Positions 26,700 to 32,260 of a stretch of 48,124 nucleotides of DNA are shown here, in pieces. Both the position numbers and the translations under genes were made by a program. The DNA lies in the NCBI GenBank assembly GCA_903881505.1, contig CAIRTM010000139.1, positions 1 through 48,124 of the forward strand. Reading direction: 5' to 3'. The stretch comes from an uncultured delta proteobacterium. GTDB taxonomy: Bacteria > Desulfobacterota > WTBG01 > CAIYCZ01 > CAIRTM01. The notes below the pieces were generated by a model, which was given only the letters and a program-made list of their open reading frames with translations, was not told where the DNA came from and did not search any database. How positions within the stretch are numbered: the first letter of the stretch is position 1; every line of letters begins with the position of its first letter.

Positions 26700-27689
26700 T
26701 TACGGGGCGCAGGCCTCCATGACATCGGCCCCCAGGCAGACCTCCCGGTAGATCGCAAGCATTTTTTCTTCCGTCATCCGTTCAAAATCCTCCTGCCGGG
26801 GCAGGATCGCCAGGCCGGCCACGTCGACCGCGCCCGGGCTGATCACGCACTGCCCGTCACCGGAGGCAAAGAAGCAGGCGGGCCGGTGGGCCCTGCGCGG
26901 CAGCACTACCCCCGCAAGATGTCCGGGGCGGCCGAAGATAATCAGGTTGAGGTCGGCTTCGCCGCCGGGAGCTGCCGTGCGGCTGAGGCGCGCGCACATG
27001 TCCCCCAGCTGCTCAAGAAGCGCCTCACGAGACTGCGCGCGGCACAGGCCGATGCCGCGGTTGTCGCGCGTGCAGAACAGCCAGGTCGTTTTGCCGTGCG
27101 GCGGCTCATCAAGCAGCGGCCGCAGCTGGCGCTCAAGCGGCAGCATGCCTGCCGGGCAGGCCTGAAAATGCAGATGATCCGGGGCCGAGGCGCCGCAGCG
27201 CGCGCCGTTGTAAAAGGCGCTGAAGCCGCCTTCAAGCCCGGCGACGAAGCCGGCCATAGCCGGCAGGGCGCTTGCAAGCAGCTGGTCGGTATGGCGCATG
27301 CTGCTGATGACCAGGTGATCGGTAAAAATCGGGAACGGGTTGTTCAGGATAAGCCAGTCCTGGGCAAAGGGCAGGCCGAGCTGCCCGGGATAGAGATTGC
27401 CCGGGCATAAAAAGCAGGGCCGCTGCGCGACATCATCGGCTGCCACCTTCGCCGTGGTGCTGCGCGCGCGGCCGGGGTTGCACTGCAGCTCGACGGTGCT
27501 GTCCGGCAGGCGCAGGGTGCGCCTCAAACGCTCACCGAGCCGGCAATGGGCTTGCTCCAGGGCCGGCCAGGTCGCACGCTGCTGCCGGATAAAGGCTCTC
27601 AGCCGGGCGCGTGCGTCTTCGCCGCCGGCATCAAGGTACGGCAGCAGCTGCTCAGGGGATATTTCAGTATACGTGTTCAAGATTCCCAC
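26700..27689 (-). CDS. DUF4922-like protein, HIT/GalT-superfamily nucleotidyltransferase
   Basis: The roughly 329-residue protein has CFLCPGNLYPGQLG, then WLILNNPFPIFTDHLVISSMRHTDQ, YNGARCGASAPDHLHFQACP and a C-terminal half with LNLIIFGRPGHLAGVVLPRR. The HLHFQA segment corresponds to the HxHxQ motif of HIT/GalT-type enzymes, and the whole fits DUF4922, related to GDP-hexose phosphorylases (VTC2-type). The substrate is unknown. The start is uncertain: GTG 27689 limits the overlap with the upstream glycosyltransferase to about a dozen bases, and TTG 27680 or GTG 27698 are alternatives. The overlap implies coupling with the glycosyltransferase. Confidence 0.75.
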   Translation of the reverse strand: MGILNTYTEISPEQLLPYLDAGGEDARARLRAFIRQQRATWPALEQAHCRLGERLRRTLRLPDSTVELQCNPGRARSTTAKVAADDVAQRPCFLCPGNLYPGQLGLPFAQDWLILNNPFPIFTDHLVISSMRHTDQLLASALPAMAGFVAGLEGGFSAFYNGARCGASAPDHLHFQACPAGMLPLERQLRPLLDEPPHGKTTWLFCTRDNRGIGLCRAQSREALLEQLGDMCARLSRTAAPGGEADLNLIIFGRPGHLAGVVLPRRAHRPACFFASGDGQCVISPGAVDVAGLAILPRQEDFERMTEEKMLAIYREVCLGADVMEACAP

Positions 27690-28594
27690 AATGTGCACCC
27701 GAACCGCTCCCGCGTGCGCTTGCGTACGGCTTCGGGATCGTAGCTGGCTGTCCCAAGCCATACCTGGTGGCCCGCATGGCCCTGCCAGCAGTGCCGGTAC
27801 CAGGCATTGCGAAGCTGCATGTCCGGCAGCGGGTCGCAGAAGCGGTATCCGTATCCGACGGCCTGCGCGAACCAGTACGCGCCCACATCACCGCCGTTGT
27901 CGTAATTGCCGAAAAAACAGCGTGCTCTGCGCGCCATGTCACGCGCGGCCGATGTCCTGATCAGGCAGCACCACTCATTGATCCGGCAGTCGTACATGTG
28001 CGGTCCGGGTGCGCTGTCCGTGAGCGGCCAGCGCTGCCAGGGACGCTCGCCGCGCATGATCCGTGCGGGCGAGCACGCGTTGGAACCGGCGCCGAAACGG
28101 CAGCGCCAGCACTGGCCCAGGTCGCCGGCAATCGCGGTTTCAGGGGTCATGCAGCCGAGATACACCCCGATGATGTCGCCCGAAAAATCAACATCATCAT
28201 GCGTCAAAAATACAAACTCCTTGTCGGTTGAGTTCAGGGCCCACTGGAACCGGATATCATCCTGCGGAGGAAAATAGCGCCGTTGGCGCGCCAGGCACGA
28301 ACCTATCGTCAGCACATAATACCAGCGGGGCATGTATGCGGGCCGGTAGCCGTGCACGATGAGCCGCTTTGTGCGAGCCGGGCGCGTGTTGCGCCGGAAA
28401 CGTATGGTCCAGTCAGGAAAATAGGCCTGCACCTTTGCGCCGGTAAAAACAGGCGCGGCATCAGGCGAGCTGCAGTCGTCGTTGATGTAGACCGTGTGGA
28501 TTCTGTCCCCGCAGCACTGCTTCAGGCACATGAGCGTGTAGAGCAGCGATTCGGGCTTGTTATAGGATTGAATGGCGACATCAACCGCGCGCAT
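27677..28594 (-). CDS. Glycosyltransferase-like protein (GT-A fold)
   Basis: This 305-residue protein starts VDVAIQSYNKPESLLYTLMCLKQC, a typical family-2 glycosyltransferase opening. NDDCSSPDA follows, and a HDDVDFSGDIIGVY segment may hold the metal-binding acidic pair. The middle is rich in Cys and Trp (QCWRCRF, NEWCCLIR). The C-terminal part has GNYDNGGDVGAYWFAQAVG, with Asp residues that could bind nucleotide-sugar. The acceptor is unknown. I start at ATG 28594 because GGAG precedes it; the longer frame to 28660 looks like spurious Ala-rich sequence. It overlaps the DUF4922-like gene downstream. Confidence 0.7.
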   Translation of the reverse strand: MRAVDVAIQSYNKPESLLYTLMCLKQCCGDRIHTVYINDDCSSPDAAPVFTGAKVQAYFPDWTIRFRRNTRPARTKRLIVHGYRPAYMPRWYYVLTIGSCLARQRRYFPPQDDIRFQWALNSTDKEFVFLTHDDVDFSGDIIGVYLGCMTPETAIAGDLGQCWRCRFGAGSNACSPARIMRGERPWQRWPLTDSAPGPHMYDCRINEWCCLIRTSAARDMARRARCFFGNYDNGGDVGAYWFAQAVGYGYRFCDPLPDMQLRNAWYRHCWQGHAGHQVWLGTASYDPEAVRKRTRERFGCTLWES

Positions 28595-28831
28595 GGCGCT
28601 CCAGCTCCCGAAAACACGGCCGCCGGCGCGCACAACAGCGGCCGCGCGGCCGGCCGCCACTATACCATGGATACGGAACGGGGCGCAAAAAAAGAAACGG
28701 ATCGAAGGCAGCCTGGTGGGGCGCTGCTGTCCTCTTTACTGCCCGCGCGTTCGGCGGTTACATGCAGCGCGAAGAAGCCGTCCGGATGAGGCGGCCGATC
28801 CGGGCGTTCCCGGCGACGGCATGCCCGCCGG

Positions 28832-29881
28832 CTAGGCTGCCCGCGTAAACGCAGCCGGGTTGTCGAGCTTTCTGTCTGCGGCCGCGGCAAAACAGGCAAG
28901 CTTTTTCATCATGGCGGCGAACTTCTCCGGGGTAAGCGATTGAACGCCGTCACAGACTGCCTGCTCCGGATTGGGGTGCACTTCCACCATAAGGCCGTCG
29001 GCCCCTGCCGCCACAGCGGCGTAGCACATGGGCGCCACGAGTTTCCAGTGCCCCGTTCCGTGACTGGGGTCCACCACGACGGGCAGATGCGTGCGCTGCC
29101 GGAGCAGGGGAACACTGCTCAGGTCGAGTGTGTTGCGCGTCGCGGTTTCGAAGGTGCGGATACCCCGTTCGCACAATATAACCTTGCTGTTGCCGCCCGC
29201 AAGGATATACTCGGCGCTCATAAGGAATTCCTCGATCGTGGTCATCATGCCGCGCTTGAGTATCACGGGAGTATTTATTTTGCCGAGCTCTTTCAACAAG
29301 GCAAAGTTCTGCACGTTGCGTGCTCCCACCTGCAGTATATCGGCATACGCGCAGATACGTTCGATATCGGAGGGGTTCATCACCTCGGTCACGATGGGCA
29401 GGCCGGTTTCGTCCCGCGCGCTGCTCAGCAGGACGAGGCCTTCCTCCTCCATGCCCTGGAAGCTGTAGGGCGATGTCCGGGGTTTGAACGCGCCCCCCCG
29501 CAGCATGGTAGCGCCGGCAGCCTTTACGGCCCGGGCAGTTTCGATGACCTGCTCCCTGCTCTCGACCGCACAGGGCCCGGCAATCACCGCCAGGCTGTCA
29601 CCGCCCACGGTTGCGCCATTGCGCAGGGTAATGACGGTTTTTTCCTGCTTCACCTCAAGGCTGGCGAGCTTGAACGGCTGCAAAATGGGCATCACGTTTT
29701 CCACGCCCGGCATGTTCTCCATGGCCTGCAGCTTTTCCTTGCCGCGTCCGCTGCCGACAGCGCCGATGACCGTGCGCTCCGAGCCCTTTATAATATGGGC
29801 CTGAAAGCCGAATTCCTGCACCATGGCAAGTACTTTCTGCAACTGCTGTTGTGTAATGTCTTTTTTTAAAACGATAATCAT
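28832..29881 (-). CDS. aroF: 3-deoxy-7-phosphoheptulonate synthase (DAHP synthase)
   Basis: This enzyme condenses phosphoenolpyruvate and erythrose-4-phosphate, the first step of the shikimate pathway. The 349-residue protein is of the AroAbeta/AroF type. An N-terminal ferredoxin-like regulatory domain (1-70; MIIVLKKDITQQQLQ) precedes a TIM-barrel core with VIAGPCAVES (99-108), RGGAFKPRTSPYSFQG (128-143), ILKRGMMTTIEEFL and VDPSHGTGH. AGGAGG lies just before the start. Expression is probably set by an attenuator directly upstream that reads the availability of aromatic amino acids. No other shikimate gene lies next to it. Confidence 0.96.
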   Translation of the reverse strand: MIIVLKKDITQQQLQKVLAMVQEFGFQAHIIKGSERTVIGAVGSGRGKEKLQAMENMPGVENVMPILQPFKLASLEVKQEKTVITLRNGATVGGDSLAVIAGPCAVESREQVIETARAVKAAGATMLRGGAFKPRTSPYSFQGMEEEGLVLLSSARDETGLPIVTEVMNPSDIERICAYADILQVGARNVQNFALLKELGKINTPVILKRGMMTTIEEFLMSAEYILAGGNSKVILCERGIRTFETATRNTLDLSSVPLLRQRTHLPVVVDPSHGTGHWKLVAPMCYAAVAAGADGLMVEVHPNPEQAVCDGVQSLTPEKFAAMMKKLACFAAAADRKLDNPAAFTRAA

Positions 29882-29910
29882 GCTGCTGCCTCCTGTTCAA
29901 TCGCACGGAT

Positions 29911-29947
29911 AAAAAAAGAGCCATGGACTGTGCTGTCCATGGCTCTT
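29911..29947 (-). terminator. Rho-independent terminator in aroF leader
   Basis: A perfect 12-bp stem AGAGCCATGGAC / GTCCATGGCTCT with a six-base loop is followed on the minus strand by a T run ending about 30 bases before the aroF start codon. Confidence 0.9.
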
Positions 29948-30014
29948 TGCCGTGCGCTTCTCGCGGCCATGGACCCTTTGCTCTGCCCATGACCTGATAA
30001 TAAACTAGCTATCA
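29911..30014 (-). promoter_or_regulatory. Attenuator of aroF: pause hairpin, antiterminator and terminator
   Basis: On the minus strand four segments follow the leader ORF. CTGCC near the leader end can pair with GGCAG downstream, around a CTGATA/TATCAG hairpin. GTCCATGGC (29966-29974) can pair perfectly with GCCATGGAC, forming an antiterminator. The same GCCATGGAC is the left arm of the terminator AGAGCCATGGAC-agcaca-GTCCATGGCTCT followed by seven or more T (29911-29947). The two folds exclude each other, as in classical amino-acid operon attenuators. The pairings were read by eye and no energies were computed. Confidence 0.85.
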
Positions 30015-30080
30015 GACGCCACTGGCAGGGCTCCTAAAAAAATAAAACCAGAAAAAGCGGCTGATAGAAGTTTGTTTCAT
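30012..30080 (-). CDS. Aromatic leader peptide for aroF attenuation
   Basis: A 22-codon ORF starting ATG at 30080 and ending TGA at 30012 encodes a peptide with the run RFFWFYFF (residues 8-15). It holds five Phe, one Trp and one Tyr within eight codons. Starvation for any of the three aromatic charged tRNAs would stall the ribosome here, expose the antiterminator and allow aroF transcription. AAGGA lies about 12 bases upstream of the ATG, slightly far. The ORF overlaps no other gene and is too short for usual gene callers. Known analogues are the pheA and trp leaders of other proteobacteria. Confidence 0.85.
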   Translation of the reverse strand: MKQTSISRFFWFYFFRSPASGV

Positions 30081-30117
30081 GTTGTGTGTAAGTCCTTATC
30101 GCGTTTCAGTTGGATAA

Positions 30118-30145
30118 AGTATATCAAAGCCTGCGCGGATGTCAA
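30118..30145 (-). promoter_or_regulatory. Sigma-70 promoter of the aroF leader
   Basis: On the minus strand TTGACA (30140-30145), a 16-base spacer and TATACT (30118-30123) lie about 38 bases upstream of the leader peptide ATG. Confidence 0.8.
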
Positions 30146-30218: not shown

Positions 30219-31106
30219 TCAGTAGCGTTTCGCGCCCCGGTTGTAATAATCAAAGCTGTCGGCATTCAACAGACGCTGGATGGATTCCCCTGTGCGGATG
30301 TGCGGGCAGCGCTCAAGGGCTTCGCGCTTGCCCGGCGTATCCGGGTGAATATATTCAATCAGTCTGGCATCGCCCGGGTCCCTGGAGGTTCCTGCCGCCG
30401 GCCAATGCTCGCCATGCAGGCCGAGCTGTTCGCACGCAAAACGCTGATGCGGATGCACCGGTTCGCGCTCGCGCATGCGCACCACCCGTTCAAAGCCGTA
30501 ATAGGCCGTGAAGCGGTCGAACCACAGGCGCTCGACCAGCCGGCGGCCATCAGGGCGCATTCCGCAAAAAAGTTCCAGCAGGGACCGGTCATTGCGCAAA
30601 ATGATGCACTGGGTGCAGAAATCAACGGCGTCATAGCGCATGCGCCGGGGAATTGATGCCAGCCGGCGGAGGCGGTCCTCCGGTGAGAGCACGATGCCTT
30701 TAACCTCCCGCGCAAGCCGCTGCAAACGGCTGCGCGGCGGCGTCGACCATGCGCAGGTGGCAATCAGGCTGCGGGGGTCCTCCTGCAGGCGGCGAATGTA
30801 GGCAAGCAGCATATCTTCTTTGAGCAGCCATACATCGCCGTCCAGCACTACGAGAAGGTCCGGCGCAAACGCCGCGGCCGCGCCGATCGCATTGCGCATG
30901 AGCGAAAGGGCCCCGGCAAAATGCGGCAGCGGAGGGCAGGGCACAAAAGCGTCCTCAAGATACGCCTGTGCACCGGCGCCTGAGGATGCGTGGACGACCA
31001 CATAGGGGTTTTTGAAATTGAGCTTGAAAATTTCCTGATTGATGCGGGCGCAGTCCAGGCGGTCGTGGCTGGTCAGGCAGACGGCTATGCGGGGCGGCAC
31101 GTGCAT
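30219..31106 (-). CDS. Putative glycosyltransferase (GT-A like)
   Basis: This 295-residue protein opens with IAVCLTSHDRLDCARINQEIFKL and has LLVVLDGDVWLLKEDMLL, where DGD is a probable DxD metal/nucleotide-sugar site. DAVDFCTQCIILRNDRS and a late ARLIEYIHPDTPGK segment follow. No membrane segment is seen. I cannot name a family beyond a general GT-A-like fold. ATG 31106 is taken as the start. GTG 31100, seven bases after GGAG, is equally good, while the frame open to 31145 lacks support. It overlaps the end of the SAF oxidoreductase gene by 22 bases, so the two are probably coupled. Confidence 0.6.
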   Translation of the reverse strand: MHVPPRIAVCLTSHDRLDCARINQEIFKLNFKNPYVVVHASSGAGAQAYLEDAFVPCPPLPHFAGALSLMRNAIGAAAAFAPDLLVVLDGDVWLLKEDMLLAYIRRLQEDPRSLIATCAWSTPPRSRLQRLAREVKGIVLSPEDRLRRLASIPRRMRYDAVDFCTQCIILRNDRSLLELFCGMRPDGRRLVERLWFDRFTAYYGFERVVRMREREPVHPHQRFACEQLGLHGEHWPAAGTSRDPGDARLIEYIHPDTPGKREALERCPHIRTGESIQRLLNADSFDYYNRGAKRY

Positions 31107-32260
31107 ACTCCATCGGAAAGGGTTGCCGGTTCTACCGCACGCCACGCCTTCAGGGCAGCGGAATCCGGGATCTCAACATCATCGAGCATGATCATGCCGC
31201 CGGCGTCAATATCGCGGGTCAGTACAGCGCTTTGCAGAAGCGCGATGGGAAGATGGCCCGGATGTTCGCGCATGCGCACGCACTCCCCCCGCACGCAAAA
31301 GCTGCCGATGCCCTGCTCGATCCGCTCGCCCGCACGGATGGTGTGCTTTGCTACCGCTGCCACGCTGATTGTCGGCCGGGCACCGTTGTCAAGCAGAACA
31401 GGGCCTCCCGCGGCCGCACGGCGCAGGGTCTTCAGGATTTCGAGATGGCAGAGATGATACGGCCTCACCATCCGGTACAGCGGGCCGTCGCCCATCTTAA
31501 ACCATTGCAGCGCAGCGGCCTCCTGCGCATCATGGCGTGCCAGGATCATCACCGCCCCGGATGCCTCTCCGGTCAGGACATAGTCGACGATCGGGCTGCC
31601 GTGTTCGTGCGCAGCCCGTGCCAGCACCTCAAGGCCGTCTTCGATACGGGGGGGTGCCGGGCCGATCATCCCCTGCCTGAGGATATCCGCACCGAAACCA
31701 TTGGCCACAAGGGCCTGCTCAAGCTGCAGCTTCGTGCCGTCGGTGAATGACACCACCTGCGGGAGCGAAATTCCGTACAGCTTTGAAAAATGGCTCATCT
31801 CGTCAAAGGTCGGGGTGTGGTTCAGAAACCTTTTCACATTTACATACACCAGGGGCTCGAAGCCCATCGCGCGGCTGTCCTCGGCGAGGGCCGCAAGCGA
31901 TCCGGGCTGATCGCCTTCGGCTTCCGTGATGTAGCCCCGGCCATGGTAATGGCTGCCTGCTGTAACATGCCAGGCCGCGCTCATGGTCACCACCCTGCGC
32001 CCGGCCGCAACCGCGCGTTCAATAACGTCAGTGGCATAGAGGGGATCGCCCGAGCATTCGACGATAATGCCGGAGCGCTCGATCAGGTCATCGGGAGATA
32101 CAGTGATCTCGCCGTCGTCAAAGCCGGGTATGTGTGCTTCCCGGCGCCTGGTCAATACCGGACCGGGCGTGAATTCGTCCGAACGCCTGAGTGCCCTGGC
32201 AAGACCCCGGGCGGTGAAACCCGTGCCGACAATACCGACAACACTCTTATCTGCACTCAA
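31085..32260 (-). CDS. NAD(P)-dependent oxidoreductase with C-terminal SAF domain
   Basis: The protein begins with a Rossmann fold (VVGIVGTGFTARGLARAL) followed by VECSGDPLYATDVIERAVAAGRRVVTMSAAWHV, like homoserine-dehydrogenase-type proteins. Its C-terminal 80 residues have the SAF pattern HTIRAGERIEQGIGSFCVRGECVRM, as in NeuB and antifreeze proteins. Proteins with this layout are common in surface-sugar clusters, but their substrate is not established. I place the start at TTG 32260: GGGAGG lies eight bases upstream and the Rossmann strand follows at once. A GTG at 32323 (412 residues) is the alternative, with only a weak site. Confidence 0.7.
   Translation of the reverse strand: MSADKSVVGIVGTGFTARGLARALRRSDEFTPGPVLTRRREAHIPGFDDGEITVSPDDLIERSGIIVECSGDPLYATDVIERAVAAGRRVVTMSAAWHVTAGSHYHGRGYITEAEGDQPGSLAALAEDSRAMGFEPLVYVNVKRFLNHTPTFDEMSHFSKLYGISLPQVVSFTDGTKLQLEQALVANGFGADILRQGMIGPAPPRIEDGLEVLARAAHEHGSPIVDYVLTGEASGAVMILARHDAQEAAALQWFKMGDGPLYRMVRPYHLCHLEILKTLRRAAAGGPVLLDNGARPTISVAAVAKHTIRAGERIEQGIGSFCVRGECVRMREHPGHLPIALLQSAVLTRDIDAGGMIMLDDVEIPDSAALKAWRAVEPATLSDGVCTCRPA

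Follow-up and report, generated by a model that had tools for sequence, protein, structure and literature searches.

The aroF gene of the window (the whole stretch of DNA analysed, 48,124 nucleotides) raises the question of how its expression is controlled and which amino acids are sensed, as a small ORF rich in aromatic codons lies ahead of it. The answer favoured here, at a probability of about 0.9, is that aroF is under a ribosome-mediated transcription attenuator with the six-segment layout of the his type.

Organization of the aroF leader region

The aroF product, which catalyses the opening step of aromatic amino acid biosynthesis, scored 508.9 bits against NF006421 (cut-off 335) and 404 bits against TIGR01361, and it matched Pfam PF18152 and PF00793. 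No Pfam match was obtained for the two flanking genes (window positions 27677-28660 and 30219-31145, minus strand), and aroF seems to stand alone, outside any aromatic operon. The promoter, the leader ORF and the terminator all lie on the minus strand between the gene ending at 30219 and aroF. The features are as follows.

28832 to 29881, minus strand: aroF, DAHP synthase of the Bacillus/Thermotoga type with an N-terminal ferredoxin-like domain (NF006421, TIGR01361, PF18152, PF00793)
30118 to 30145, minus strand: promoter, TTGACA, 16-nt spacer, TG-A-TATACT (extended TG), 11 of 12 consensus matches
30092 to 30097, minus strand: possible ribosome-binding site of the leader, AAGGAC by sequence, 11 nt 5' of the ATG, a rather long spacing
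30012 to 30080, minus strand: leader ORF MKQTSISRFFWFYFFRSPASGV, 22 sense codons and a TGA stop, containing RFFWFYFF
30036 to 30056, minus strand: control codons, the aromatic run F9 F10 W11 F12 Y13 F14 F15
30048 to 30067, minus strand: segment A, partner of B when the ribosome is absent
30009 to 30030, minus strand: segment B, 3' end of the leader ORF, core CTGCC
29981 to 30000, minus strand: segment C, core GGTCATGGGCAGAG, partner of B (antitermination) or D (termination)
29965 to 29976, minus strand: segment D, GGGTCCATGGCC, partner of C or E
29935 to 29948, minus strand: segment E, AAAGAGCCATGGAC, partner of D or F
29909 to 29928, minus strand: segment F and T run, 3' arm of the terminator E:F

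All the attenuator elements that an earlier note had listed for this place were found, including the consensus promoter and the 22-codon leader ORF. The hairpin that it took for a pause-type structure corresponds to A:B (30067-30009, -18.0 kcal/mol), and the exact 9-base antiterminator pairing is that of GTCCATGGC (29974-29966) with GCCATGGAC (29943-29935). Its terminator is also present with the T run next to it, 27 bp before aroF; the stem (29948-29915, -23.9 kcal/mol), however, has 14 pairs rather than the 12 claimed when the flanking A-U pairs are counted. Two helices beyond that list, B:C (30030-29981) and C:D (29994-29965), connect the 9-base pairing with the leader peptide and complete a chain of six segments. 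The five chained helices (A:B, B:C, C:D, D:E and E:F), arranged like dominoes, were all found in the window.

The aromatic run consists of five Phe, one Tyr and one Trp codon. With seven aromatic residues in nine codons, the leader stands out from the 861 small ORFs of the window that were compared, the next best of which has four. As computed, the fold of the whole leader was 5.3 s.d. better than that of dinucleotide shuffles (z = -5.3), and none of 200 shuffles folded equally well. Searches of Pfam and NCBIfam returned no entry for such a leader peptide.

Conservation among aroF orthologs

A set of 80 aroF orthologs was collected by scanning genome contigs with an aroF alignment. About 60 of them are preceded, typically at a distance of 180-265 nt, by a similar leader (17-37 codons, at least five aromatics in nine), and these belong to Desulfuromonadales, Geobacter and Syntrophaceae-type genomes; the orthologs of Nitrospinota, Nitrospirae and Tectomicrobia genomes in the same survey were without a leader. 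The same arrangement precedes the aroF ortholog of four relatives (genomes G008, G005, G004 and G010; loci L002, L003, L004 and L006), and a TTGACA-type promoter occupies the equivalent position in L002, L003 and L004. Leaders were absent from L005, a same-family ortholog at 75% identity, and nothing comparable was seen before other DAHP synthase paralogs such as L018 and L020-L022. Genome G001, of the same genus, lacks this aroF ortholog.

Among 68 aroF leaders, Phe codons occur in all 68, Tyr in 66 and Trp in 60, and all three occur together in 58. This codon content, like the gene-matched runs found elsewhere (see below), agrees with the earlier suggestion that a single leader may sense Phe, Tyr and Trp. 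Intrinsic terminators follow 67 of the 68 leaders, two in 33 cases and one in 34. In many leaders, those of L003, L004 and L006 included, a T run after C:D makes this helix the first of two terminators, whereas C:D of the window has no T run.

Conservation and covariation of the helices

In an alignment of 31 leaders, the cells forming a standard pair were counted, with partners slid by 1-3 columns as the control. B:C was paired in 91.8% of the cells (31 sequences), against 31-39% in its slid controls; the values for C:D, D:E and E:F were 94.1, 97.2 and 97.0%, and across the four helices the slid partners paired in 10-57% of cells. Five pairs of C:D and five of E:F were changed on both sides, with 20-21 such cells each (21 for E:F). 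The palindrome CCAUGG leaves D:E little room to vary in this clade; in an alignment of Desulfuromonadales the helix was kept with different letters, often UCUCCC with GGGAGA.

Moreover, a swap test was performed, in which segment partners were exchanged between species and the pairing energies compared. In each of two clades, the own partners paired better than swapped ones for B:C, C:D, D:E and E:F (at most 9 of 2000 permutations), and the control pairs C:F and B:E showed no own-partner advantage. When all species were swapped together, C:F was positive as well; that version was confounded by the shared palindrome CCATGG, and the within-clade repeat removed the effect.

The survival of the aromatic run and the paired helices in close relatives, named beforehand as a test of the attenuator reading, was therefore borne out, with covariation. 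Judged from these alignments, the predicted antiterminator (B:C with D:E) is mutually exclusive with C:D and E:F, and both sets are conserved. The whole corresponds to the his-type layout, in which A:B, C:D and E:F alternate with B:C and D:E, although A:B is present in only part of the homologs. It was found in 48 of 66 homologs and is missing in the closest relatives, and for this reason A:B is the least certain part.

Ribosome position and folding in silico

The effect of ribosome position was modelled by hiding the RNA up to the front edge of the ribosome, with the transcript made as far as E, and folding the remainder. With the last aromatic codon in the A site, the offset between the front edge and B has a median of -2 nt over 56 homologs. 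For the window, a stall at codons 4-14 gave B:C with 8.8 expected pairs together with D:E with 5-9, and a ribosome placed anywhere from codon 15 to the stop gave C:D with about 10 expected pairs and no D:E. The fold thus flips on passing from codon 14 to codon 15, where the aromatic run ends, which supports the attenuator reading of the earlier note. Both W11 and Y13 lie inside the switching zone. The D:E switch amounts to 9.1 pairs in the window, a value reached by none of 300 shuffles. In this model, a stalled ribosome frees the switching segment and a ribosome at the stop codon covers it.

Switching codons were found in 53 of 66 homologs, the other 13 being non-switching in this simple equilibrium model, and the antiterminating fold persisted beyond the run at just 17 of 632 codons (66 homologs). 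When the transcript was folded only to D, with E omitted, most homologs seemed non-switching. The six-segment model was retained because adding E, and with it D:E, restored the switch in those 53. At full length in the stalled state, the fold with E:F (-54.8 kcal/mol) is more stable than the fold with D:E (-42.1 kcal/mol). Antitermination would therefore have to be under kinetic control, with D:E in place before F has been transcribed. Classical attenuator models likewise assume that the antiterminator forms first, and it is by analogy with them that this order is proposed.

Proposed mechanism

Transcription would start about 30-40 nt before the leader. With enough charged tRNA for Phe, Tyr and Trp, the ribosome would pass codons 9-15 and cover segment B; C:D could then pair, E would be left free for F, and RNA polymerase would terminate at the T run. 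When one of the three tRNAs is short, the ribosome would stall at one of codons 9-14, its front edge stopping just short of B, so that B:C forms and D is freed for D:E, F is left without a partner, and the polymerase would read into aroF. Opening by a shortage of any one of the amino acids would be the natural reading of the codon run. The aroR leader of Corynebacterium glutamicum warns by analogy that the presence of a codon may not guarantee a response.

A wider family of leaders

A covariance model, R1, was built from 31 leaders and applied at E <= 0.001, the E-values being rough. Of the 395 genomes of the phylum, 224 were matched, and many of these gave between two and six matches each. 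R1 also recovered the aroF leaders of Pelovirga and Geobacter, which lie outside its training set, and gave no match in those genomes of Nitrospirae and Tectomicrobia to which it was applied. The 130 matches inspected were taken from among the best and second-best, and hence not at random; nearly all have an aromatic-rich leader. The downstream genes, classed by NCBIfam name, include the following numbers of inspected matches.

DAHPS Ib: 41
Aminotransferase (PRK06836): 24
2-amino-3,7-dideoxy-D-threo-hept-6-ulosonate synthase (aroA'): 23
ABC transporter substrate-binding proteins: 11
Protein without an NCBIfam name: 6
DAHPS Ia: 5
TrpB-like, TrpE and TrpD: 4 each
Phenylacetate-CoA ligase (PaaK): 4

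Trp codons are present in 12 of 12 leaders of trp genes, in 46 of 69 leaders of DAHPS or aroA' genes and in 2 of 38 leaders of aminotransferase, transporter or PaaK genes (Fisher p 1.6e-10 and 7e-10 for the contrast between gene classes). In the other gene classes, a pair of terminators and a switch close to where the run ends were seen again, less regularly than before aroF.

We lean towards regarding these leaders as one undescribed family of Desulfobacterota and Desulfuromonadales. Its members would share the B-C-D-E-F scaffold, often with two terminators disarmed by a single stall, and would exchange the codon run for specificity: the common pathway would go with Phe, Tyr and Trp, trp genes with Trp alone, and aminotransferases, transporters and the activation of aryl acids with Phe or Tyr. 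The aroF leader would then work as an OR gate, with a shortage of any one of the three amino acids enough to open it.

The strongest competitor keeps the same attenuator and makes it effectively a phenylalanine sensor, for which a shortage of Tyr or Trp hardly matters. Phe makes up five of the seven residues of the window run, Trp is missing from 8 of the 68 aroF leaders, and in C. glutamicum aroR, with its Phe-Tyr-Phe codons, the effect is described as coming from Phe limitation only (PMC11802643). Against this stand the retention of Trp in 60 and of Tyr in 66 of those leaders, the position of W11 and Y13 within the switching zone, and the near absence of Trp (2 of 38) from Phe/Tyr-type gene leaders built on the same RNA scaffold. 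Sensing of Phe alone is accordingly judged unlikely, yet it deserves to be taken seriously.

TnaC is an arrest peptide, in which the nascent chain together with a free amino acid halts the ribosome. A similar control of aroF by a nascent aromatic peptide might be suspected from the unusual hydrophobic sequence and from its end near a conserved PSA or VCP motif. That C-terminal motif, however, follows from the RNA pairing of B, and the residues of the run vary freely among F, Y and W and with the downstream gene, in no fixed pattern, so that this explanation is very improbable. Slightly less credit still is given to an ordinary terminator, or terminators, insulating aroF from upstream transcription, with the small ORF being non-regulatory: a strong hairpin and T run do lie just before aroF, but the promoter is upstream of the terminator, the aromatic run, segment B and the alternative helices are kept and co-vary, and the codon run differs by downstream gene.

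Relation to known leaders

Leader-peptide attenuation is a textbook mechanism. As in amino acid leader attenuators generally, a short ORF with a run of end-product codons is followed here by a terminator located between the ORF and the gene. Rfam 15 gave no match at gathering or permissive thresholds for the window and 16 related loci; the Trp, Phe, His, Leu and Thr leader families did not reach their gathering scores in this set, and below threshold only chance microRNA matches appeared. A tRNA- or metabolite-binding leader (T-box or riboswitch), which a structured leader before an amino acid gene could also suggest, is practically negligible, given that no Rfam family matched at threshold and that the conserved, gene-matched part is the ORF with its codon run.

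The attenuator reading of the aroF leader can be compared with several known systems. The his attenuator of Salmonella and E. coli sets A:B, C:D and E:F against B:C and D:E, and the leaders described here share this six-segment chain with its two alternating helix sets. It differs in its His codons and in having one terminator, where many of the present leaders have a T run after C:D as well; to our knowledge, the two have no sequence relation. E. coli trpL and pheL likewise use ribosome-mediated attenuation with Trp or Phe codons, but each senses one amino acid, they serve other operons, and their Rfam families were unmatched here.

A counterpart before aroF is aroR-aroF of C. glutamicum, in which an aromatic-codon leader peptide precedes a DAHP synthase gene and ribosome stalling relieves termination, and where only Phe limitation is said to have mattered despite the Tyr codons (PMC11802643, describing Neshat et al. 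2014). Compared by that description, aroR differs from the window leader in lacking Trp, in belonging to an actinobacterium and in its Phe-only effect. The uORFC-13-1 motif, for which attenuation before aroF was proposed and the structure reported as uncertain, also combines a small ORF containing Phe codon(s) with a terminator upstream of aroF, but it is confined to Acholeplasma and unassigned environmental sequences (PMC8632094). In a delta-proteobacterium, an attenuator was predicted (Merino database) before aroA' of the aroA'-aroB'-pheA-aroF-tyrA-trp supraoperon of Desulfovibrio vulgaris (PMC1173090, Table 7). This is likewise aromatic-gene attenuation; as listed there, the prediction comes without a leader peptide or family, and the gene context is unlike that of the window.

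The mechanism class is already known, also before aroF. The family, a leader combining Phe, Tyr and Trp codons at the pathway entry, and an exchangeable run on a shared scaffold appear to be undescribed; no published description of this leader family was found in the freely accessible literature that was searched. If the proposal is true, a largely uncultured group of anaerobes regulates aromatic metabolism through one modular RNA design instead of repressors, and Phe, Tyr and Trp are all monitored by one leader at the entry to the pathway. The codon run would also be a readable label predicting Phe, Tyr or Trp transporters, transaminases and CoA ligases where genetics is hard, and this would extend to an apparent arylacetate-salvage operon. 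In addition, the leaders offer a natural series for studying the relative weight of each amino acid in a leader with mixed codons, a question to which aroR, with Tyr codons and no Tyr response, gives a puzzling answer.

Downstream genes of other leaders

In the genome of the window, R1 has a single match, the aroF leader, and a search for a trpE leader there met only weak TrpE-family paralogs below the family cut-off. In G010, a genome of the same order, trpE has two hairpins and the end of a leader containing W (KKYWWLLAEAYVCSL) ahead of it, next to a contig edge (L243:1-190), and R1 gave a weak match there.

The PRK06836 aminotransferase is regularly found behind a Phe/Tyr-run leader (24 loci, including L144, L148, L172, L181, L186, L194 and L195), which suggests that this protein is an aromatic aminotransferase. 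Two subfamilies of LIV-type substrate-binding proteins (L141, L142, L158 and L159 versus L154, L200, L214, L216, L231, L235 and L236) are divided between Phe-rich leaders for one and Tyr-rich leaders for the other, a hint at substrate specificity.

Tyr- or Phe-run leaders also precede two operons. At L249 (G173:C45), genes named by eye as an LIV-type ABC transporter, a phenylacetate-CoA ligase-like protein and IorA/IorB-like proteins follow, and L247 (G051:C40) has PaaK, another PaaK-like gene and an LIV-type transporter. Their induction when Phe or Tyr runs short would be in keeping with operons that recover arylacetates for amino acid synthesis, not with catabolic ones.

Finally, a protein of about 480-540 aa, GNAT-like by eye and without an NCBIfam match, is encoded behind aromatic leaders at L147, L150, L175, L189, L219 and L230. 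At L250, the gene for the GNAT-like protein is followed by that of an apparent ADP-forming acyl-CoA synthetase.
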